Source: Prochlorococcus sp. AG-679-M10
GTDB taxonomy: Bacteria > Cyanobacteriota > Cyanobacteriia > PCC-6307 > Cyanobiaceae
Assembly: GCA_003210655.1 (NCBI GenBank)
Contig: QCUQ01000008.1
Coordinates: 1-53,671, forward strand
Direction: 5' to 3'
Length of the DNA stretch: 53,671 bases
The notes under the pieces were generated by a model. It saw only the letters and a program-made list of their open reading frames with translations, was not told the DNA's origin and made no database searches. A program made the position numbers and the translations under genes. Shown here piece by piece: positions 6,384 through 48,274 of this stretch; the first letter of the stretch is position 1; each line of letters begins with the position of its first letter.

Positions 6384-6865
6384 TTTAAAAGCATCAACTC
6401 TGGATAATAATTCATTATCTTTTTTGCCATTTTAAAAGTTAAATATGCAAAATTAATTAGTAACGCATTATTTACGATAAAATAATATGAATATTATGCA
6501 TTAAAAAATTGATTTAGCTCTATTAAATCTGCGTATTGTTTTCCTTAAAATATGATTTTTTATGGAAAGGTCAGAAATTGCATAAAGAGTTAAAAAGAAA
6601 ACTGCCTTTGCAAAAATTGAAATTTGCATTATAAAAAGATACCTATTTATATAGAACCAAATCACTATAGATAAGCAAGTCCTTGAAGATCTCAAAATCC
6701 TTAAGGATTAATTTAATTAAGAGTCCAATACCAACAATGAGAAAGTTACTTTCCGTCCATAATTTTTTATCTCTAGATTATCTATATTAGAAATTATTAA
6801 CAAAATTATTTTTAGTAATTAATACCCTAGATATTTGATGCCTTTTCCTAGTAATATATAAATAT

Positions 6866-6936
6866 CAGAAACTCCTCACACACTAATTTCTGATGATCAA
6901 ACACCCTTTTCTCTAAATTAGGGTGTTTTTATTTAC
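6866..6936 (+). ncRNA. Yfr1-like small RNA
   Basis: The 11-nt ACTCCTCACAC (6871-6881) is identical to the hallmark unpaired motif of the cyanobacterial sRNA Yfr1. Here it lies mostly in the loop of an 8-bp stem (ATCAGAAA 6864-6871 with TTTCTGAT 6887-6894). A strong intrinsic terminator follows: AAACACCCT (6899-6907) pairs with AGGGTGTTT (6920-6928), then a T run. An AT-rich -10-like TATATA lies at 6855-6860. The size of about 70 nt fits. Canonical Yfr1 keeps the motif between two stem-loops, so this could be a variant rather than the ortholog; the motif identity is seen, the name is inferred. Confidence 0.65.
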
Positions 6937-7029
6937 ATAAAAACTGAAATTCATAACTGATATTTGTGACAATTTATCTACCTGCACATCTCTTTAAGCT
7001 GTAGGAAAATGTATGGAATGTTTAAATGT

Positions 7030-7118
7030 GTGCAGGAGAGGTTTTACTGCAATAGTGGAAACAAGGAAACACTTGGTTTAGTACAACTAGAAGGAGACCT
7101 CAAGTAGAAATATTTTTT
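7030..7118 (+). ncRNA. Yfr2-family small RNA
   Basis: The segment GGAAACAAGGAAAC (7057-7070), held in a loop closed by AGTG/CACT, is the conserved signature of the Yfr2-type sRNAs of marine cyanobacteria. It is preceded by GAGAGGTTTTACTGC and followed by a stem (ACTTG with CAAGT) and a T run at 7113-7118 that can serve as terminator. The family has no settled role. It lies about 100 nt downstream of the Yfr1-like RNA in a 1.2-kb stretch with no supported protein gene. Confidence 0.7.
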
Positions 7119-9329: not shown

Positions 9330-9483
9330 TGAAAAATAATTAATAAAATTGCAGTACTAATAAAGGCTTAACTCATCGAATTAATATTTATCAAGATATC
9401 TAGTAAATAGTAAATATTTTTATTTAATATATTTTAAATCTTGCTTATTTTAACCATTTTAAAATTTAATTGTTGATCCTCTA

Positions 9484-9564
9484 TCCGTATATTGGAGTAC
9501 CTCAAACCGAACATCTTTATTAATCGCATGACTCGTCTATTTAGTTAGAACGTAAGTGTAGTTG
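9484..9564 (+). promoter_or_regulatory. Shared forward promoter block, copy A
   Basis: Contains CCGTAT, nine bases, CCTCAAACCGAACA, then TTAGTTAGAACGTAAGTG. The block at 18404-18484 has the same order, with exactly 38 bases from AAACCG to TTAGTTAGAAC in both. It lies just before the ORF at 9575. Probably a promoter or operator; the regulator is unknown. Confidence 0.5.
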
Positions 9565-9574
9565 TCATGAAAAA

Positions 9575-10192: not shown

Positions 10193-10217
10193 TAAAGTGT
10201 AGCTAAAGCTACCAAAT

Positions 10218-10267
10218 CGTCCGATCTACCACTAGATAGACCGCAGTACGACTCAAGCCAAAGGACG
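10218..10267 (+). promoter_or_regulatory. Glutamine-II (downstream-peptide) riboswitch-like aptamer, copy 1
   Basis: CGTCC (10218-10222) pairs with GGACG (10263-10267) as outer stem; inside are a hairpin ATCTA-CCAC-TAGAT, then CGCAGT and CGACTCA. The same order, with different but still paired stem bases, occurs on the minus strand at 48047-48092. Both precede tiny DUF4278-like proteins. This matches my memory of the glutamine-II motif of marine cyanobacteria; ligand binding is inferred. Confidence 0.6.
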
Positions 10268-10296
10268 GGGACTTGAGCAAGCTCAGGAGCTGCATC

Positions 10297-15094: not shown

Positions 15095-15118
15095 GACTTT
15101 TGCAGTTAATGGAAATCC

Positions 15119-15165
15119 CGTTCCCTATTTCCATGTCATGCGTCCAGATGCTACTAGGATGAACG
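15119..15165 (-). promoter_or_regulatory. Glutamine-riboswitch-like aptamer, variant copy 3
   Basis: On the minus strand CGTTCATCC starts the element, a TCC/GGA-closed hairpin follows, then CGCATGACATGG and GGGAACGGG; CGTTC and GAACG form the outer stem. The order matches the other two copies, but CGCATG replaces CGCAGT. It is 25 bases before the ORF starting at 15094. A -10-like TATTAA lies just upstream. Confidence 0.5.
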
Positions 15166-15306
15166 TAAATTAATACTAACATCAGGTCTTTCTAGCCGTG
15201 AGAGCAAAAAAACCTAAATATCACCACCTCTTCATCGCTGTTTTGTCAGATCAATGGTCAATAAGATATCCCTTTATTAATGAATCAATTATTTAATTAA
15301 TACTAT

Positions 15307-15465: not shown

Positions 15466-15534
15466 TTATATAAGAAGTATGGTTGATTTCTGCAGCTTCC
15501 GCGGCAGTCTCATGACAACCATGCAATTATTCTA
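15466..15534 (-). promoter_or_regulatory. Hairpin leader with tiny ORF, copy C
   Basis: On the minus strand a -10-like TAGAAT (15529-15534) precedes GGTTGTCATGAG, a CTGC/GCAG hairpin and a closing CAACC (15481-15520). A frame through it reads MVVMRLPRKLQKSTILLI. The leader at 18308-18363 has the same layout and the peptide MFVMRQLKGYN. It may be an RNA structure, a leader peptide, or both. Confidence 0.4.
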
Positions 15535-15576
15535 GGAAGTCTTAATTATTCACTAAGTATTTATACGTACCTAATC

Positions 15577-15605
15577 CCGAACCTTGTCGTTCCTTAACCC
15601 GTACA
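15577..15605. promoter_or_regulatory. Partial copy of the CCGTAC / CCTTAAACCGTACA block
   Basis: CCGAAC, nine bases, then CCTTAACCCGTACA, matching the first half of the blocks at 9484 and 18404. The downstream TTAGTTAGAAC part is absent and no clear plus-strand gene follows, so it may serve the divergent minus-strand gene or be a remnant. Confidence 0.4.
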
Positions 15606-15675
15606 AAGTTCAAATCACAAATCTAATAACTTTCATTTTAAGCAACAACTGTTAAAGGAGGTAAATAATTATTTA

Positions 15676-15912
15676 TTACCAAACTACTTTTGTTTTACGC
15701 CAACCTTGAGAAAGTAATCTTTCATAAATTTCTCTAGCTAAATCTATATCTACAGAAACTGTTGTAGTAATTACTGGAGGTTCTTTCCCTAATACTCCAA
15801 CTATTTTTCCAGAGTCAATAAACATATACTCGAATACTTTATCAATACTCTTATTGTTCTTTATGAATCTCTTGACTTCTGATCTATTTGAATTTATCAG
15901 CCAATATTCCAT
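15676..15912 (-). CDS. DUF1651-like small protein (78 aa)
   Basis: 78 residues: YWLINSNRSEVKRF at the start and DIDLAREIYERLLSQGWRKT near the end. The protein at 18927-19175 has LINKDRSRIKVF and IEDARKEYKELLEEGWKKT in the same places, so they are paralogs related to the longer DUF1651 protein at 13169. It is the last of four overlapping or closely spaced genes reading left from promoter element copy 5. Function unknown. Confidence 0.7.
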   Translation of the reverse strand: MEYWLINSNRSEVKRFIKNNKSIDKVFEYMFIDSGKIVGVLGKEPPVITTTVSVDIDLAREIYERLLSQGWRKTKVVW

Positions 15913-16052
15913 TATTTATTTATAAATATATAAGCCGAATATAAATAAACTAAGAAAGCACCAATAGCAAAAAAACTTCCATAGATTAGAAAATTCCAAA
16001 TCCTAAATAATTTAGGTTTTTCGTATTCTGTTTCCTCTTTTTTAGTAATCAT
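15912..16052 (-). CDS. Small single-span membrane protein (46 aa)
   Basis: 46 residues: a charged N-terminus (MITKKEETEYEKPKLFRIW) then one hydrophobic span to the end. The start overlaps the upstream stop (ATGA) and the stop overlaps the downstream start (TAATG), so it is coupled on both sides. No family recognised. Confidence 0.6.
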   Translation of the reverse strand: MITKKEETEYEKPKLFRIWNFLIYGSFFAIGAFLVYLYSAYIFINK

Positions 16053-16165
16053 TTACTTTCTCGCTCTTTTCTTGCTGCGTTACCTTTAGCTCTTAGTACC
16101 AGAGTTACAGTTAATGCAGTACTTAGTATTCCAACATCAATTAATAAGTGAGGAGAAATATTCAT
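16049..16165 (-). CDS. Small single-span membrane protein (38 aa)
   Basis: 38 residues: one span (LLIDVGILSTALTVTLVL) and a basic tail (RAKGNAARKERESK). It begins 12 bases after the ABM-like gene and overlaps the next ORF, forming an operon. No family recognised. Confidence 0.55.
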   Translation of the reverse strand: MNISPHLLIDVGILSTALTVTLVLRAKGNAARKERESK

Positions 16166-16176
16166 ATAAAGATTTA

Positions 16177-16467
16177 TTAGGCAACAATATTTCCAGAAAC
16201 AGGATCAGTTACTCCTAATTCTGGTGAAAGCTCTTCCATGAATCCTCTAACTACATCAAGATGAGCAATCATTTTAGATCTTTGGGCTGCTATAGCTTCT
16301 GGACTTTCCCAGATACCAACAAAACAGTAATCATAATCTCCAGTTTTCGCAATATATCTTTGTGTCATTCCTTCGAACTCCGTTTTATTAATTACTTCAA
16401 AATACTTTTCTACACAATCCTGTTTCAATTTAAATCGAACAACATTCATAAAATTTGAGGAAGACAT
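16177..16467 (-). CDS. ABM-like dimeric alpha-beta barrel protein (96 aa)
   Basis: 96 residues with FMNVVRFKLKQDCVEKYFEV at the N-terminus, a central YDYCFVGIWES and the final helix VVRGFMEELSPELG: the ABM/dimeric alpha-beta barrel pattern. No catalytic residue can be assigned with confidence. It is the first gene after promoter element copy 5 and leads an operon of four small genes. Confidence 0.65.
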   Translation of the reverse strand: MSSSNFMNVVRFKLKQDCVEKYFEVINKTEFEGMTQRYIAKTGDYDYCFVGIWESPEAIAAQRSKMIAHLDVVRGFMEELSPELGVTDPVSGNIVA

Positions 16468-16478
16468 ACAAAAGATAA

Positions 16479-16514
16479 AGGTGTTATTCCATCAATTGTA
16501 GATCGACTTTCAAT
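16479..16514 (-). promoter_or_regulatory. Shared promoter/leader element, copy 5
   Basis: On the minus strand: TTGAAAGTCGATC, TACAAT, TGATGGAATAACACC. It lies 12-47 bases upstream of the ABM-like start at 16467. The inverted repeat is weak in this copy. Confidence 0.6.
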
Positions 16515-16551
16515 TACTAACTATTGGAGATGAGAGAAATAATCGTTTCAT

Positions 16552-16923
16552 TTAAAATTTAAGTTTTGTTTTTACTCTATTTTTATTCTCAGAATTAAAT
16601 TTAAAAAGTCCCGAGTCAGTAAATATAGTCAATTCATCGCCATATGATTCCTGGATAGATAAACCTTCATCAGACTCTAAATTTTTAACAAATACATTTC
16701 CAACTAGTTTTAAAGTTCTCGTATCTTTGTCGTAAGTAAGCTTATTTGAGGATGCTTCAAAATTATTCTTATTACTTTTGATAACTACATTTCCAATAGC
16801 TTCAAAACTACCTTTAACATTTTGTATCTGAGAATCAGAAGTGACCGTATAATTCAGTTTCTCTTTTGAAAATGAAATTTCAGTATGAATAAACAGTACC
16901 GCTGCAAATAGTAAGCGTTTCAT
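16552..16923 (-). CDS. Secreted LptA/OstA-like protein (123 aa)
   Basis: A signal peptide (about residues 1-19, MKRLLFAAVLFIHTEISFS) is followed by repeating beta strands with IGNVVIKSNKNNFEASSNKL and LVGNVFVKN, the G-N-V-x-[IV] strand pattern of LptA/OstA beta-jellyroll domains that shuttle lipopolysaccharide. It is shorter than full LptA, so it may be a partial or specialised paralog. Its ATG directly abuts the stop of the gene at 16924-17187, so the two form an operon from promoter copy 6. Confidence 0.65.
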   Translation of the reverse strand: MKRLLFAAVLFIHTEISFSKEKLNYTVTSDSQIQNVKGSFEAIGNVVIKSNKNNFEASSNKLTYDKDTRTLKLVGNVFVKNLESDEGLSIQESYGDELTIFTDSGLFKFNSENKNRVKTKLKF

Positions 16924-17187
16924 TTACCCAACAAGTTCAATTGCATAGACAGTATCCTTACAATTATTTTTTTTATCCCATTCCTTTGCAAAAGGCGATT
17001 CCATCTCTGAACCTAATTTTTCTAAGTCAGTACAGTTGATTAATAAATGAGATTTATGGTCATTGACTTTTACAAACTCATAATCAGTGACAAATTCTTT
17101 GCACATTTCTTCAAGAAATAAATTAGTAACATCATTTCTAAATTCCTCAAATGTACAGCTAAAAGTTGAGATGATAAGTGTGTTCAT
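16924..17187 (-). CDS. Small hypothetical protein with possible signal peptide (87 aa)
   Basis: I place the start at ATG 17187 (MNTLIISTFSCTFEEFRNDV). The frame is open to 17232, but the extra 15 codons cover promoter element copy 6. The short hydrophobic N-terminus may be a signal peptide, and several Cys (SCTF, EEMC, INCTD, KNNC) suggest an exported, disulfide-bearing protein. It abuts the OstA-like gene. No family recognised. Confidence 0.6.
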   Translation of the reverse strand: MNTLIISTFSCTFEEFRNDVTNLFLEEMCKEFVTDYEFVKVNDHKSHLLINCTDLEKLGSEMESPFAKEWDKKNNCKDTVYAIELVG

Positions 17188-17204
17188 AAAAATAAAATAG
17201 CTAA

Positions 17205-17234
17205 TAACATAGTATTTTATATCGACTATCAATT
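17205..17234 (-). promoter_or_regulatory. Shared promoter/leader element, copy 6
   Basis: On the minus strand: TTGATAGTCGATA, TAAAAT, ACTATG. It lies 18-47 bases upstream of the start at 17187 and inside the open but probably untranslated upstream frame. It is the copy with the least clear inverted repeat. Confidence 0.55.
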
Positions 17235-17250
17235 AAAAATATTGGGATTT

Positions 17251-17679
17251 TCACTTATTAATAGTTGTAGGGAGTCCCACAGCAGATGCCGCCACTACAT
17301 AAAGAACTGCTGGTTCATTACCTATATTTTCAACGAAATGTTCATCGCCATTATTACTCTCGATTAATGATTGCTTTGATGAAAAGTAATTAACAACATC
17401 TCCTCTCATATGCTTCAATTCTCCTTGAGCAAGATAAACAACCATAGGCGCTGGATGAGTGTGAATTGGAGTCTTTAATCCAACAGGAATAATAACCTTG
17501 AAGAATCTAAGCTCGGCTTGCTTCCCTCTAGGGTAAGAAATCTTCTTACCTCCTAGACCCTTTGTACTTTGAATAAGAGGCATTACTTCAATCTTTTCTT
17601 GAGCTTTAGTAATGTCCAAAGTTAGGAGAACTGATGAAATTGTTATTGCTGAGATTAATAGATTTCTAAATTTTTGCAT
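17251..17679 (-). CDS. Secreted cupin-domain protein (142 aa)
   Basis: A signal peptide (about residues 1-26, ending TKA) is followed by one cupin domain. The metal-binding cupin motif 1 is visible as PIHTHPAPMVVYLAQGELKH (His73, His75, Glu87 region), with a shorter second motif near HFVENIGNEPAVLY. It is probably a periplasmic metal-binding protein; substrate unknown. It has its own promoter element (copy 7) and ends 17 bases from copy 6. Confidence 0.8.
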   Translation of the reverse strand: MQKFRNLLISAITISSVLLTLDITKAQEKIEVMPLIQSTKGLGGKKISYPRGKQAELRFFKVIIPVGLKTPIHTHPAPMVVYLAQGELKHMRGDVVNYFSSKQSLIESNNGDEHFVENIGNEPAVLYVVAASAVGLPTTINK

Positions 17680-17689
17680 TAATAAAGTA

Positions 17690-17723
17690 TCTAATTGCTC
17701 CTTATTTTATATTGACTGTCAAC
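17690..17723 (-). promoter_or_regulatory. Shared promoter/leader element, copy 7
   Basis: On the minus strand: TTGACAGTCAATA, TAAAAT, AAGGAGCAATTAG. It has the same TTGAC/GTCAA palindrome as copy 4 and lies about 11-44 bases upstream of the secreted cupin start. Confidence 0.65.
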
Positions 17724-17808
17724 AATTACACCTTTAATAAAGGTATCGCTAGTTGCAGATTATGAAAAGAATAAGAGCTAAGAGTTAATCACTAACTTGA
17801 AAGGTTTA

Positions 17809-17898
17809 ATGGCAAAAGATAGGATGGGTTTATTTCGGATAGCAGTTGCATTAAACGTGCTTATGTTACTGGTAATAATAGTTCTAGTCTTAACTTAA
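17809..17898 (+). CDS. Tiny single-span membrane peptide (29 aa)
   Basis: ATG at 17809; 29 residues, MAKDRMGLFRIAVALNVLML and a hydrophobic end. A short basic N-terminus plus one span resembles small photosystem or stress peptides, but no family is recognised. Confidence 0.45.
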   Translation: MAKDRMGLFRIAVALNVLMLLVIIVLVLT

Positions 17899-17919
17899 TT
17901 GCTATTAACAGGTGTTTAA

Positions 17920-17952
17920 TTAATGCCTTGTTAGAAGTAGTAAGCATTTCAT
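17920..17952 (-). pseudogene. Possible remnant of a signal-peptide gene start
   Basis: The 10-codon frame MKCLLLLTRH begins in the stop codon of the gene at 17952-18206. Its DNA (AAATGCTTACTACTT) resembles the starts of the OstA-like gene (16923) and the decayed gene at 12086, which also directly follow a minus-strand stop. Perhaps a truncated copy of the same secreted family. Confidence 0.25.
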
Positions 17953-18206
17953 TATAAGCAATTCTTATAACCTTCTATTTTTGCTAATTCCTTAATACTT
18001 AAACCAGTTTCTTTTAAAAGTGCTTCTCCGATATTATCCCCATTGAATTTGTTTAAAGCGGCTTTTTCGGAGAGCCTTATGCATGTATTCTTATATTTTG
18101 CTTCTTTAATTACCGGCGATACATACAAACCTAATAAAATTAAAAAGCCTCCAAAAGTTACTACTCTTCTATGGGTTTTCCACCATTGATAAAATTTATT
18201 AGTCAT
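17952..18206 (-). CDS. Small single-span membrane protein (84 aa)
   Basis: 84 residues: a basic N-terminus (KFYQWWKTHRRV), one span (VTFGGFLILLGLYVSPVI), then a soluble part with two Cys (NTCIRL and YKNCL). The forward ORF at 18682-18924 has a similar layout (span, then a Cys-containing LCIKYLKH segment and a final Cys), so they may be related. It is read from promoter element copy 8. Confidence 0.6.
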   Translation of the reverse strand: MTNKFYQWWKTHRRVVTFGGFLILLGLYVSPVIKEAKYKNTCIRLSEKAALNKFNGDNIGEALLKETGLSIKELAKIEGYKNCL

Positions 18207-18210
18207 TAAA

Positions 18211-18250
18211 AATAGAAGATTTTATCCTTCTAATATAGATGACTGTCAAT
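18211..18250 (-). promoter_or_regulatory. Shared promoter/leader element, copy 8
   Basis: On the minus strand: TTGACAGTCATC (one base shorter), TATATT, AGAAGGATAAAATCTTCT and T residues; the AGAAG/CTTCT arms pair. It directly precedes the start at 18206. No minus-strand gene ends to its right. Confidence 0.65.
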
Positions 18251-18307
18251 CATCTGTTTACTTTAATGAGTGTGTTTAATAACCTGACTTTATCTCAAAT
18301 GATTTAT

Positions 18308-18363
18308 GGTTGGCTTCAGTTGTATCCCTTCAACTGCCTCATGACAAACATATATTAATTCTA
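18308..18363 (-). promoter_or_regulatory. Hairpin leader with tiny ORF, copy B
   Basis: On the minus strand a -10-like TAGAAT (18358-18363) precedes GTTTGTCATGAGG, a perfect CAGTTG/CAACTG hairpin and CCAACC. Compared with copy C (15466-15534) the hairpin bases differ but still pair. The frame through it reads MFVMRQLKGYN. Confidence 0.45.
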
Positions 18364-18403
18364 GGACTGCCATTTAAATATCTTTATCAAAATTTAGTCC
18401 TCT

Positions 18404-18484
18404 TACCGTACTTTTTTCTTCCTTAAACCGTACAGGTTGATACTCATAAATAATACGAATCATTAGTTAGAACATAGATATAGT
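18404..18484 (+). promoter_or_regulatory. Shared forward promoter block, copy B
   Basis: CCGTAC, nine bases, CCTTAAACCGTACA, then TTAGTTAGAACATAG and a -10-like TATAGT. The spacing from AAACCG to TTAGTTAGAAC is 38 bases, as at 9484-9564. It drives the ORF at 18500. Confidence 0.55.
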
Positions 18485-19175: not shown

Positions 19176-19280
19176 AAACAAAAAAAATCAAATTAACCTA
19201 TGAGAAACCCTTCCAGAAATTCCCACTACTGAAAGGGTTATTAAATTGAAAACACTACTATACGTAATCAATTTATGTCT

Positions 19281-19305
19281 CTTTGAGGTTTGGCCTCATT
19301 TTATT
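19281..19305 (+). terminator. Weak intrinsic terminator after the DUF1651-like gene
   Basis: TGAGG-TTTGG-CCTCA followed by TTTTATTT. A short 5-bp stem; a longer CCCTT/AAGGG inverted repeat also lies at about 19210-19242 without a T run. Confidence 0.4.
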
Positions 19306-48018: not shown

Positions 48019-48046
48019 GTTTCGATGTGACAAAACGGCCATCCCC

Positions 48047-48092
48047 CGTTCCCTGGTATGACTCGAACTGCGCCTTCTAATGAAGGTGAACG
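48047..48092 (-). promoter_or_regulatory. Glutamine-II (downstream-peptide) riboswitch-like aptamer, copy 2
   Basis: On the minus strand: CGTTC pairs with GAACG as outer stem, CCTTC-ATTA-GAAGG forms the inner hairpin, then CGCAGT and CGAGTCA, followed by GGGGG near the ORF. Same layout as copy 1 (10218-10267) with compensating stem changes. Confidence 0.65.
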
Positions 48093-48274
48093 AAATGTAG
48101 CCATAGCTACTCTTTAAGTATAAACCTATTTTTGTGTTACTGTCCAGATATTACAGATAGAAATTATTTTTTAATTTTTTTTTAATTATTATCTTAAGTA
48201 AATTTTGGTGTGATTTATATCTAAAAGGGATTAGGTTTATATTTAATTTCCGCTTTACTAATTAATTTAAATTT

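Follow-up and report, generated by a model that had tools for sequence, protein, structure and literature searches.

The window, positions 1 to 53,671 of contig QCUQ01000008.1 from Prochlorococcus sp. AG-679-M10, carries on its minus strand two copies of a composite element near 15.5 and 18.3 kb, each consisting of a two-box operator, a promoter-like -10 box and a predicted leader RNA ahead of an open reading frame (ORF) (Table 1). The features that the first-pass annotation had reported as shared on this strand, TAGAAT, TTGTCATGAG, a hairpin and CAACC, were found in both regions, with TTGTCATGAG at 15509-15518 and 18338-18347, and the two short reading frames said to run through the hairpins also exist. 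A repeat search of the window gave an 83% match between 15509-15537 and 18338-18366. The regions had been described as twins, but they are members of one multicopy family with four copies in this genome (62% complete): blastn recovered two further copies at C1:111327 and C1:112439, the latter decayed together with its ORF. In a covariance model search of the genome, copy 1 matched at 15478-15523 (minus strand, E 1.9e-12) and copy 2 at 18305-18352 (minus strand, E 8.1e-12).

The family was profiled across related genomes. A pattern for the leader core matched 21 of 350 genomes of the bacterial family, all 21 within the genus Prochlorococcus, with 0 control matches, far more than chance would give, and was not found in the other-genus genomes searched. 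A covariance model derived from 52 distinct cores detected leader copies in 153 of the 266 genus genomes searched (57 of the 87 good ones). Operator-bearing copies in the named genome collection came from records labelled Prochlorococcus, with a few from Synechococcaceae, and the pattern matches in unrelated bacteria lacked the operator and look like chance. Genome G152, which we take to be MED4, has four leader copies, with the A of ATGGTTG at about 816975 (plus), 1343857 (minus), 1346984 (plus) and 1364482 (plus), and no copy reaches E 0.05 in the genomes taken as MIT9301, MIT9312 and AS9601. The G152 sequences at the published coordinates of Yfr11 and Yfr16 are alike, as expected from the original report (PMC2518516). 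Phage, viral and plasmid origins were considered and rejected: phage blastn gave one 26-nt match, judged to be chance, the ten viral matches to the core pattern were all without the operator, the operator patterns had no viral matches, and no plasmid match was found. A link to hli genes was also set aside, as few copies have an hli gene within 3 kb.

In nearly all copies the TANNNT -10 box ends 6 nt before ATGG, and this fixed spacing places the likely transcription start at the A of ATGGTTG or adjacent bases. In the window these predicted starts agree with 15,522 and 18,351, the positions put forward in the first-pass annotation. The leader predicted from there is 45-47 nt long and has an outer stem formed by AUGGUUG and CAACCAU, an inner hairpin and UCAUGAG as an unpaired stretch; copy 1 has this arrangement with a GGAA tetraloop, and class I loops are mostly of the GNRA type. 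The inner helix covaries, with 24 cells changed on both sides, a count reached in 0 of 500 shuffles and far above that of slid structures. Because the search pattern had itself fixed part of the outer stem and UCAUGAG, another set was drawn with the covariance model; it gave 49 both-side-changed cells in an alignment that leans towards the model. Loss of pairing in other copies had been named by the first-pass annotation as a result that would refute its reading; the pairing was retained. The leaders matched no Rfam family in a covariance model scan. On reading the sequences, no U-tract was found after the hairpin, which precedes AAATCAACCATA or similar. A leader bound by CsrA was considered and rejected, as PF02599 was detected in 0 of 12 genomes, though found in 3 control genomes, and class II loops are without GGA.

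Four leader classes differ in the genes behind them. Class I is followed by MTDPILYLS (49 amino acids), class II by MTYYSCFDQ (60 amino acids) and then MTQRT, and class IV by MTQRT alone, while class III stands before varied genes further away. These include a gene for a DUF3764 protein in MED4 and, outside MED4, one for a plastocyanin-like protein. The distance from the predicted start to the ORF is 64 to 73 nt in classes I, II and IV, whose ORFs belong to three unrelated gene families. The inner-helix covariation, the fixed promoter spacing and this near-constant distance together support the earlier suggestion that the hairpin may be part of a structured regulatory leader.

The operator spans about -83 to -46 and has two boxes of ~17 bp each, with consensus about TGTACGGTTTRAGGAAC and GGTACGGRAAGAGGTA. 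The spacing from box to box is 22 bp, seen as an identity peak at lag 22 (z 4.95, 0 of 300 permutations); an 11-bp repeat unit was rejected, since lag 11 was not significant and the period is 22. The plus-strand block of the first-pass annotation is present, as TTCCTTAAACCGTACA at 18419-18434, but 15590-15605 reads TTCCTTAACCCGTACA, with one base different, and the block is only one part of the longer operator. Operator and leader are 46 nt apart in 101 of the 114 copies, and nearly all have the TANNNT hexamer. In a weight matrix the operators score about 15 to 60 and the reversed-sequence controls no higher than 7.6. Searches with the operator sequence model detected the operator alone in every high-light genome tested, including leaderless strains, and returned weak matches (E 0.1-0.3) or none in five genomes of other genera.

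The leaderless operators face the opposite side, where TTAGAAC lies 31-32 nt away and is followed by other small orphan genes. Of 147 operators, 91 have a TTAGAAC-type motif at the opposite-side position, which would place many of those in classes II and III between divergent promoters. The regions had been called divergent, which holds at 18.3 kb, with TTAGAAC and a plus-strand ORF beyond operator 2, and not at 15.5 kb. A gene similar to that plus-strand ORF flanks the copy in MED4. A third operator in the window faces the plus strand only and is weak alone (E 0.16), but MED4 conserves its position before the same gene; TTGTCATGAA lies by it on the plus strand at 9562-9571. In MIT9515, at 383340, the operator and the -10 box are kept and the leader is lost, upstream of a gene that is found behind the leader in other places, as if the promoter served the downstream gene.

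NtcA-activated promoters have GTAN8TAC centred near -41.5 and a TAN3T -10 box. Class I has a GTAN8TAC near -41.5 in 15 of 20 operators and class IV in 4 of 5, whereas classes II (0 of 38) and III (0 of 26) have none. This possible NtcA site shares bases with the second operator box in classes I and IV, and in operator copy 1 it overlaps the proximal end. Nitrogen may therefore be one input in these two classes, whereas the feature common to all classes is the two-box operator further upstream. In divergent operators of response regulators or CRP-like activators, two sites lie two helical turns apart with promoters on both sides, and the present operator is alike in spacing and in its apparent two-way service. 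We know of no cyanobacterial motif that matches the box sequence.

We consider it likely that these elements make up a regulon of high-light Prochlorococcus in which a promoter is combined with a structured leader. A dimeric transcription factor would probably sit on both boxes on one DNA face, 22 bp being two helical turns, and the operator could act on promoters in both directions. At the leader-side promoter, the -10 box would start an RNA at AUGGUUG whose first 45-47 nt would fold into the 5'-terminal stem, the conserved unpaired UCAUGAG and the covarying inner hairpin, and this common leader would head the mRNAs of several unrelated small proteins. The transcript of leader 2 may in the same way reach the 84-amino-acid ORF. 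For the leader we tentatively favour a role in cis that affects the stability or translation of the mRNA and involves no leader peptide. Judged against Rfam and Yfr8-Yfr21, the regulon and its leader appear to be undescribed, and each belongs to a known kind, the one as a regulon with a shared operator and the other as a structured 5' leader. A text search of papers for the motifs gave one short string, in a Prochlorococcus paper. In high-light Prochlorococcus regulatory proteins are few, and the islands encode many orphan small proteins. A common operator and RNA leader would link many of these proteins into one testable regulon, and the MED4 coordinates and motif models give a handle on what switches such small genes on.

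Several points weigh against this interpretation. Many copies come from close relatives, so the counts overstate independent events, and some conserved bases were fixed by the search pattern. Changes in the outer stem are mainly GC-to-GU and UA-to-UG, which are compatible with pairing but lend weaker support, and the single-sequence folding stability is unremarkable, little above that of shuffles. In class III the ORFs are found a long way downstream and vary from copy to copy, an arrangement that fits a small RNA equally.

Alternatively, and especially in class III, the leader transcript could be a family of small RNAs that act independently in trans, with the downstream genes having their own promoters. 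Class III copies are alike for about 85 nt after the start and then run into unrelated sequence, several downstream ORFs are preceded by another conserved motif, TTGACAGTC..TAAAAT, that might be a promoter of its own, and small RNAs are common in MED4 islands (PMC2518516). The Prochlorococcus Yfr small RNAs (Steglich et al. 2008, PMC2518516; Lott et al. 2020, PMC7368042) are likewise short, structured, from high-light strains and often in islands. However, an ORF opens 64-73 nt from the start in classes I, II and IV, and in the sequences read no terminator follows the hairpin of these classes. The four MED4 copies also lie outside the coordinates published for Yfr8-Yfr21 (PMC2518516, Table 1), and the ten of these regions that were tested had no match to the leader model. 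We regard this explanation as unlikely.

The regulon of high-light Prochlorococcus may be elaborated further, in a speculative version that we also rate as unlikely: one undescribed regulator would run variable small-protein genes through the bidirectional two-box operator, and the GUCAUGAG element of the leader would be a second, post-transcriptional layer, working by start-codon pairing or through an RNA-binding partner common to the leader and the Yfr20 terminator motif. GUCAUGAG with an AGGGAU-loop motif recurs in the terminator region of Yfr20, as in leader classes III and IV. The GUCAUGAG/(U)AGGGAU-loop pattern matches every genome of the genus tested, and the reversed control matches none of them. 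The Yfr20 occurrence, with a stem and (U)AGGGAU loop, lies in the 3' terminator of this small RNA (L232, MED4, plus strand from about 293), and the 3' terminator of a small gene close to the hli cluster has the motif too (L221 and L015, minus strand).

A two-state RNA switch, in which GUCAU of the leader pairs with a downstream AUGAC start region and shuts translation once the leader stem opens, seems more doubtful still. The ORFs of three unrelated families behind the leader begin with AUGAC in almost all copies, and for class I the start-paired fold matches the closed leader in stability (-13.8 vs -13.6 kcal/mol). However, the closed leader is better by about 4 kcal/mol in class II, and the leader variants GUUAU, GUCGU and GUAAU are not accompanied by matching changes at the start codon. 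Leaderless relatives of class I likewise begin with MTDP, which indicates that the start sequence is independent of the leader.

It is very improbable that the family is a dispersed repeat like a miniature inverted-repeat transposable element, spread by recombination, holding a promoter by chance and having no selected function. The copies are numerous, patchy among strains and next to small variable genes, and the copy at C1:112 kb in this genome decayed together with its ORF; against this stand the exact spacings of operator, -10 box and ORF across unrelated genes, the pair-preserving changes in the hairpin, and the lack of inverted repeats at the unit ends in the sequences read.

Attenuation by a leader peptide from MVVMR-type micro-ORFs, as the first-pass annotation had offered, is the least credible explanation: the frame does open at the predicted +1 in nearly all copies and, as in known leader-peptide attenuators, overlaps a hairpin near the 5' end, but it shows no coding constraint, with mostly non-synonymous and repeated nonsense changes among the distinct in-frame changes of class II (60 copies), a stop position that varies (5 to 71 codons over 95 copies), a second ATG that becomes GTG in three copies reading GUCGUGAG (L268, L269, L316), no conserved peptide and, in the sequences read, neither a terminator nor a run of control codons.

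Table 1 Features of the two leader copies and the third operator in the window.
Feature	Coordinates	Strand	Remarks
Leader RNA copy 1, class I	15478..15522	-	Predicted +1 = 15522; from alignment
-10 box TAGAAT, copy 1	15529..15534	-	6 nt ahead of predicted start; spacing conserved across classes
Two-box operator, copy 1	15563..15606	-	Operator model E 2.0e-12; 22-bp repeat
Small ORF after leader 1, MNDPILYLSMILGL..., 49 amino acids	15307..15456	-	No family match
Leader RNA copy 2, class III	18305..18351	-	Predicted +1 = 18351; one outer-stem mismatch
-10 box TAGAAT, copy 2	18358..18363	-	From sequence
Two-box operator, copy 2	18392..18434	-	Operator model E 1.6e-10; between two putative divergent promoters
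ORF, 84 amino acids (MTNKFYQWW...)	17952..18206	-	First long ORF downstream of leader 2
TTAGAAC, -10-like, putative opposite-direction promoter of operator 2	18467..18473	+	
Small ORF MNKRLPYAIIPKYF...YWKLKCEENPSYRGCEI, 46 amino acids	18500..18640	+	Behind putative opposite-direction promoter of operator 2
Third operator	9478..9513	-	Faces plus strand only
TTAGAAC, -10-like, behind operator 3	9545..9551	+	
Small ORF MSTSTQKEVYNSETKKRSEEELLEEEIRNQQTIDIFIESDKNWC, 44 amino acids	9575..9709	+	

Other features were noted around the leaders. A second shared promoter-like motif, TTGACAGTCRATMTAAAATA or similar, occurs on the minus strand at 17232-17191, 17722-17681 and 18248-18230, before several small genes, and in MED4 such motifs also lie downstream of class III leaders. 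Copies from different leader classes are often 0.8-3 kb apart in the same orientation (L062, L142, L115, L116), as in the window, where the cluster between both leaders includes an LptC/LptA-like small protein (16552-16923, minus strand). The Glutamine-II (downstream-peptide) motif, RF01704, one of the structured 5' leaders known from cyanobacteria, resembles the leader in being a short conserved RNA before small ORFs, but it differs in fold and sequence, and no ligand is suggested for the leader; three Glutamine-II aptamers lie in the window, at 15109-15168 (minus), 10215-10277 (plus) and 48038-48095 (minus). Yfr13 is found at 19220-19297, on the same (minus) strand as leader copy 2 and upstream of it, and the window also has Yfr10 at 6864-6941 (plus) and Cyano-1 at 7024-7093 (plus).

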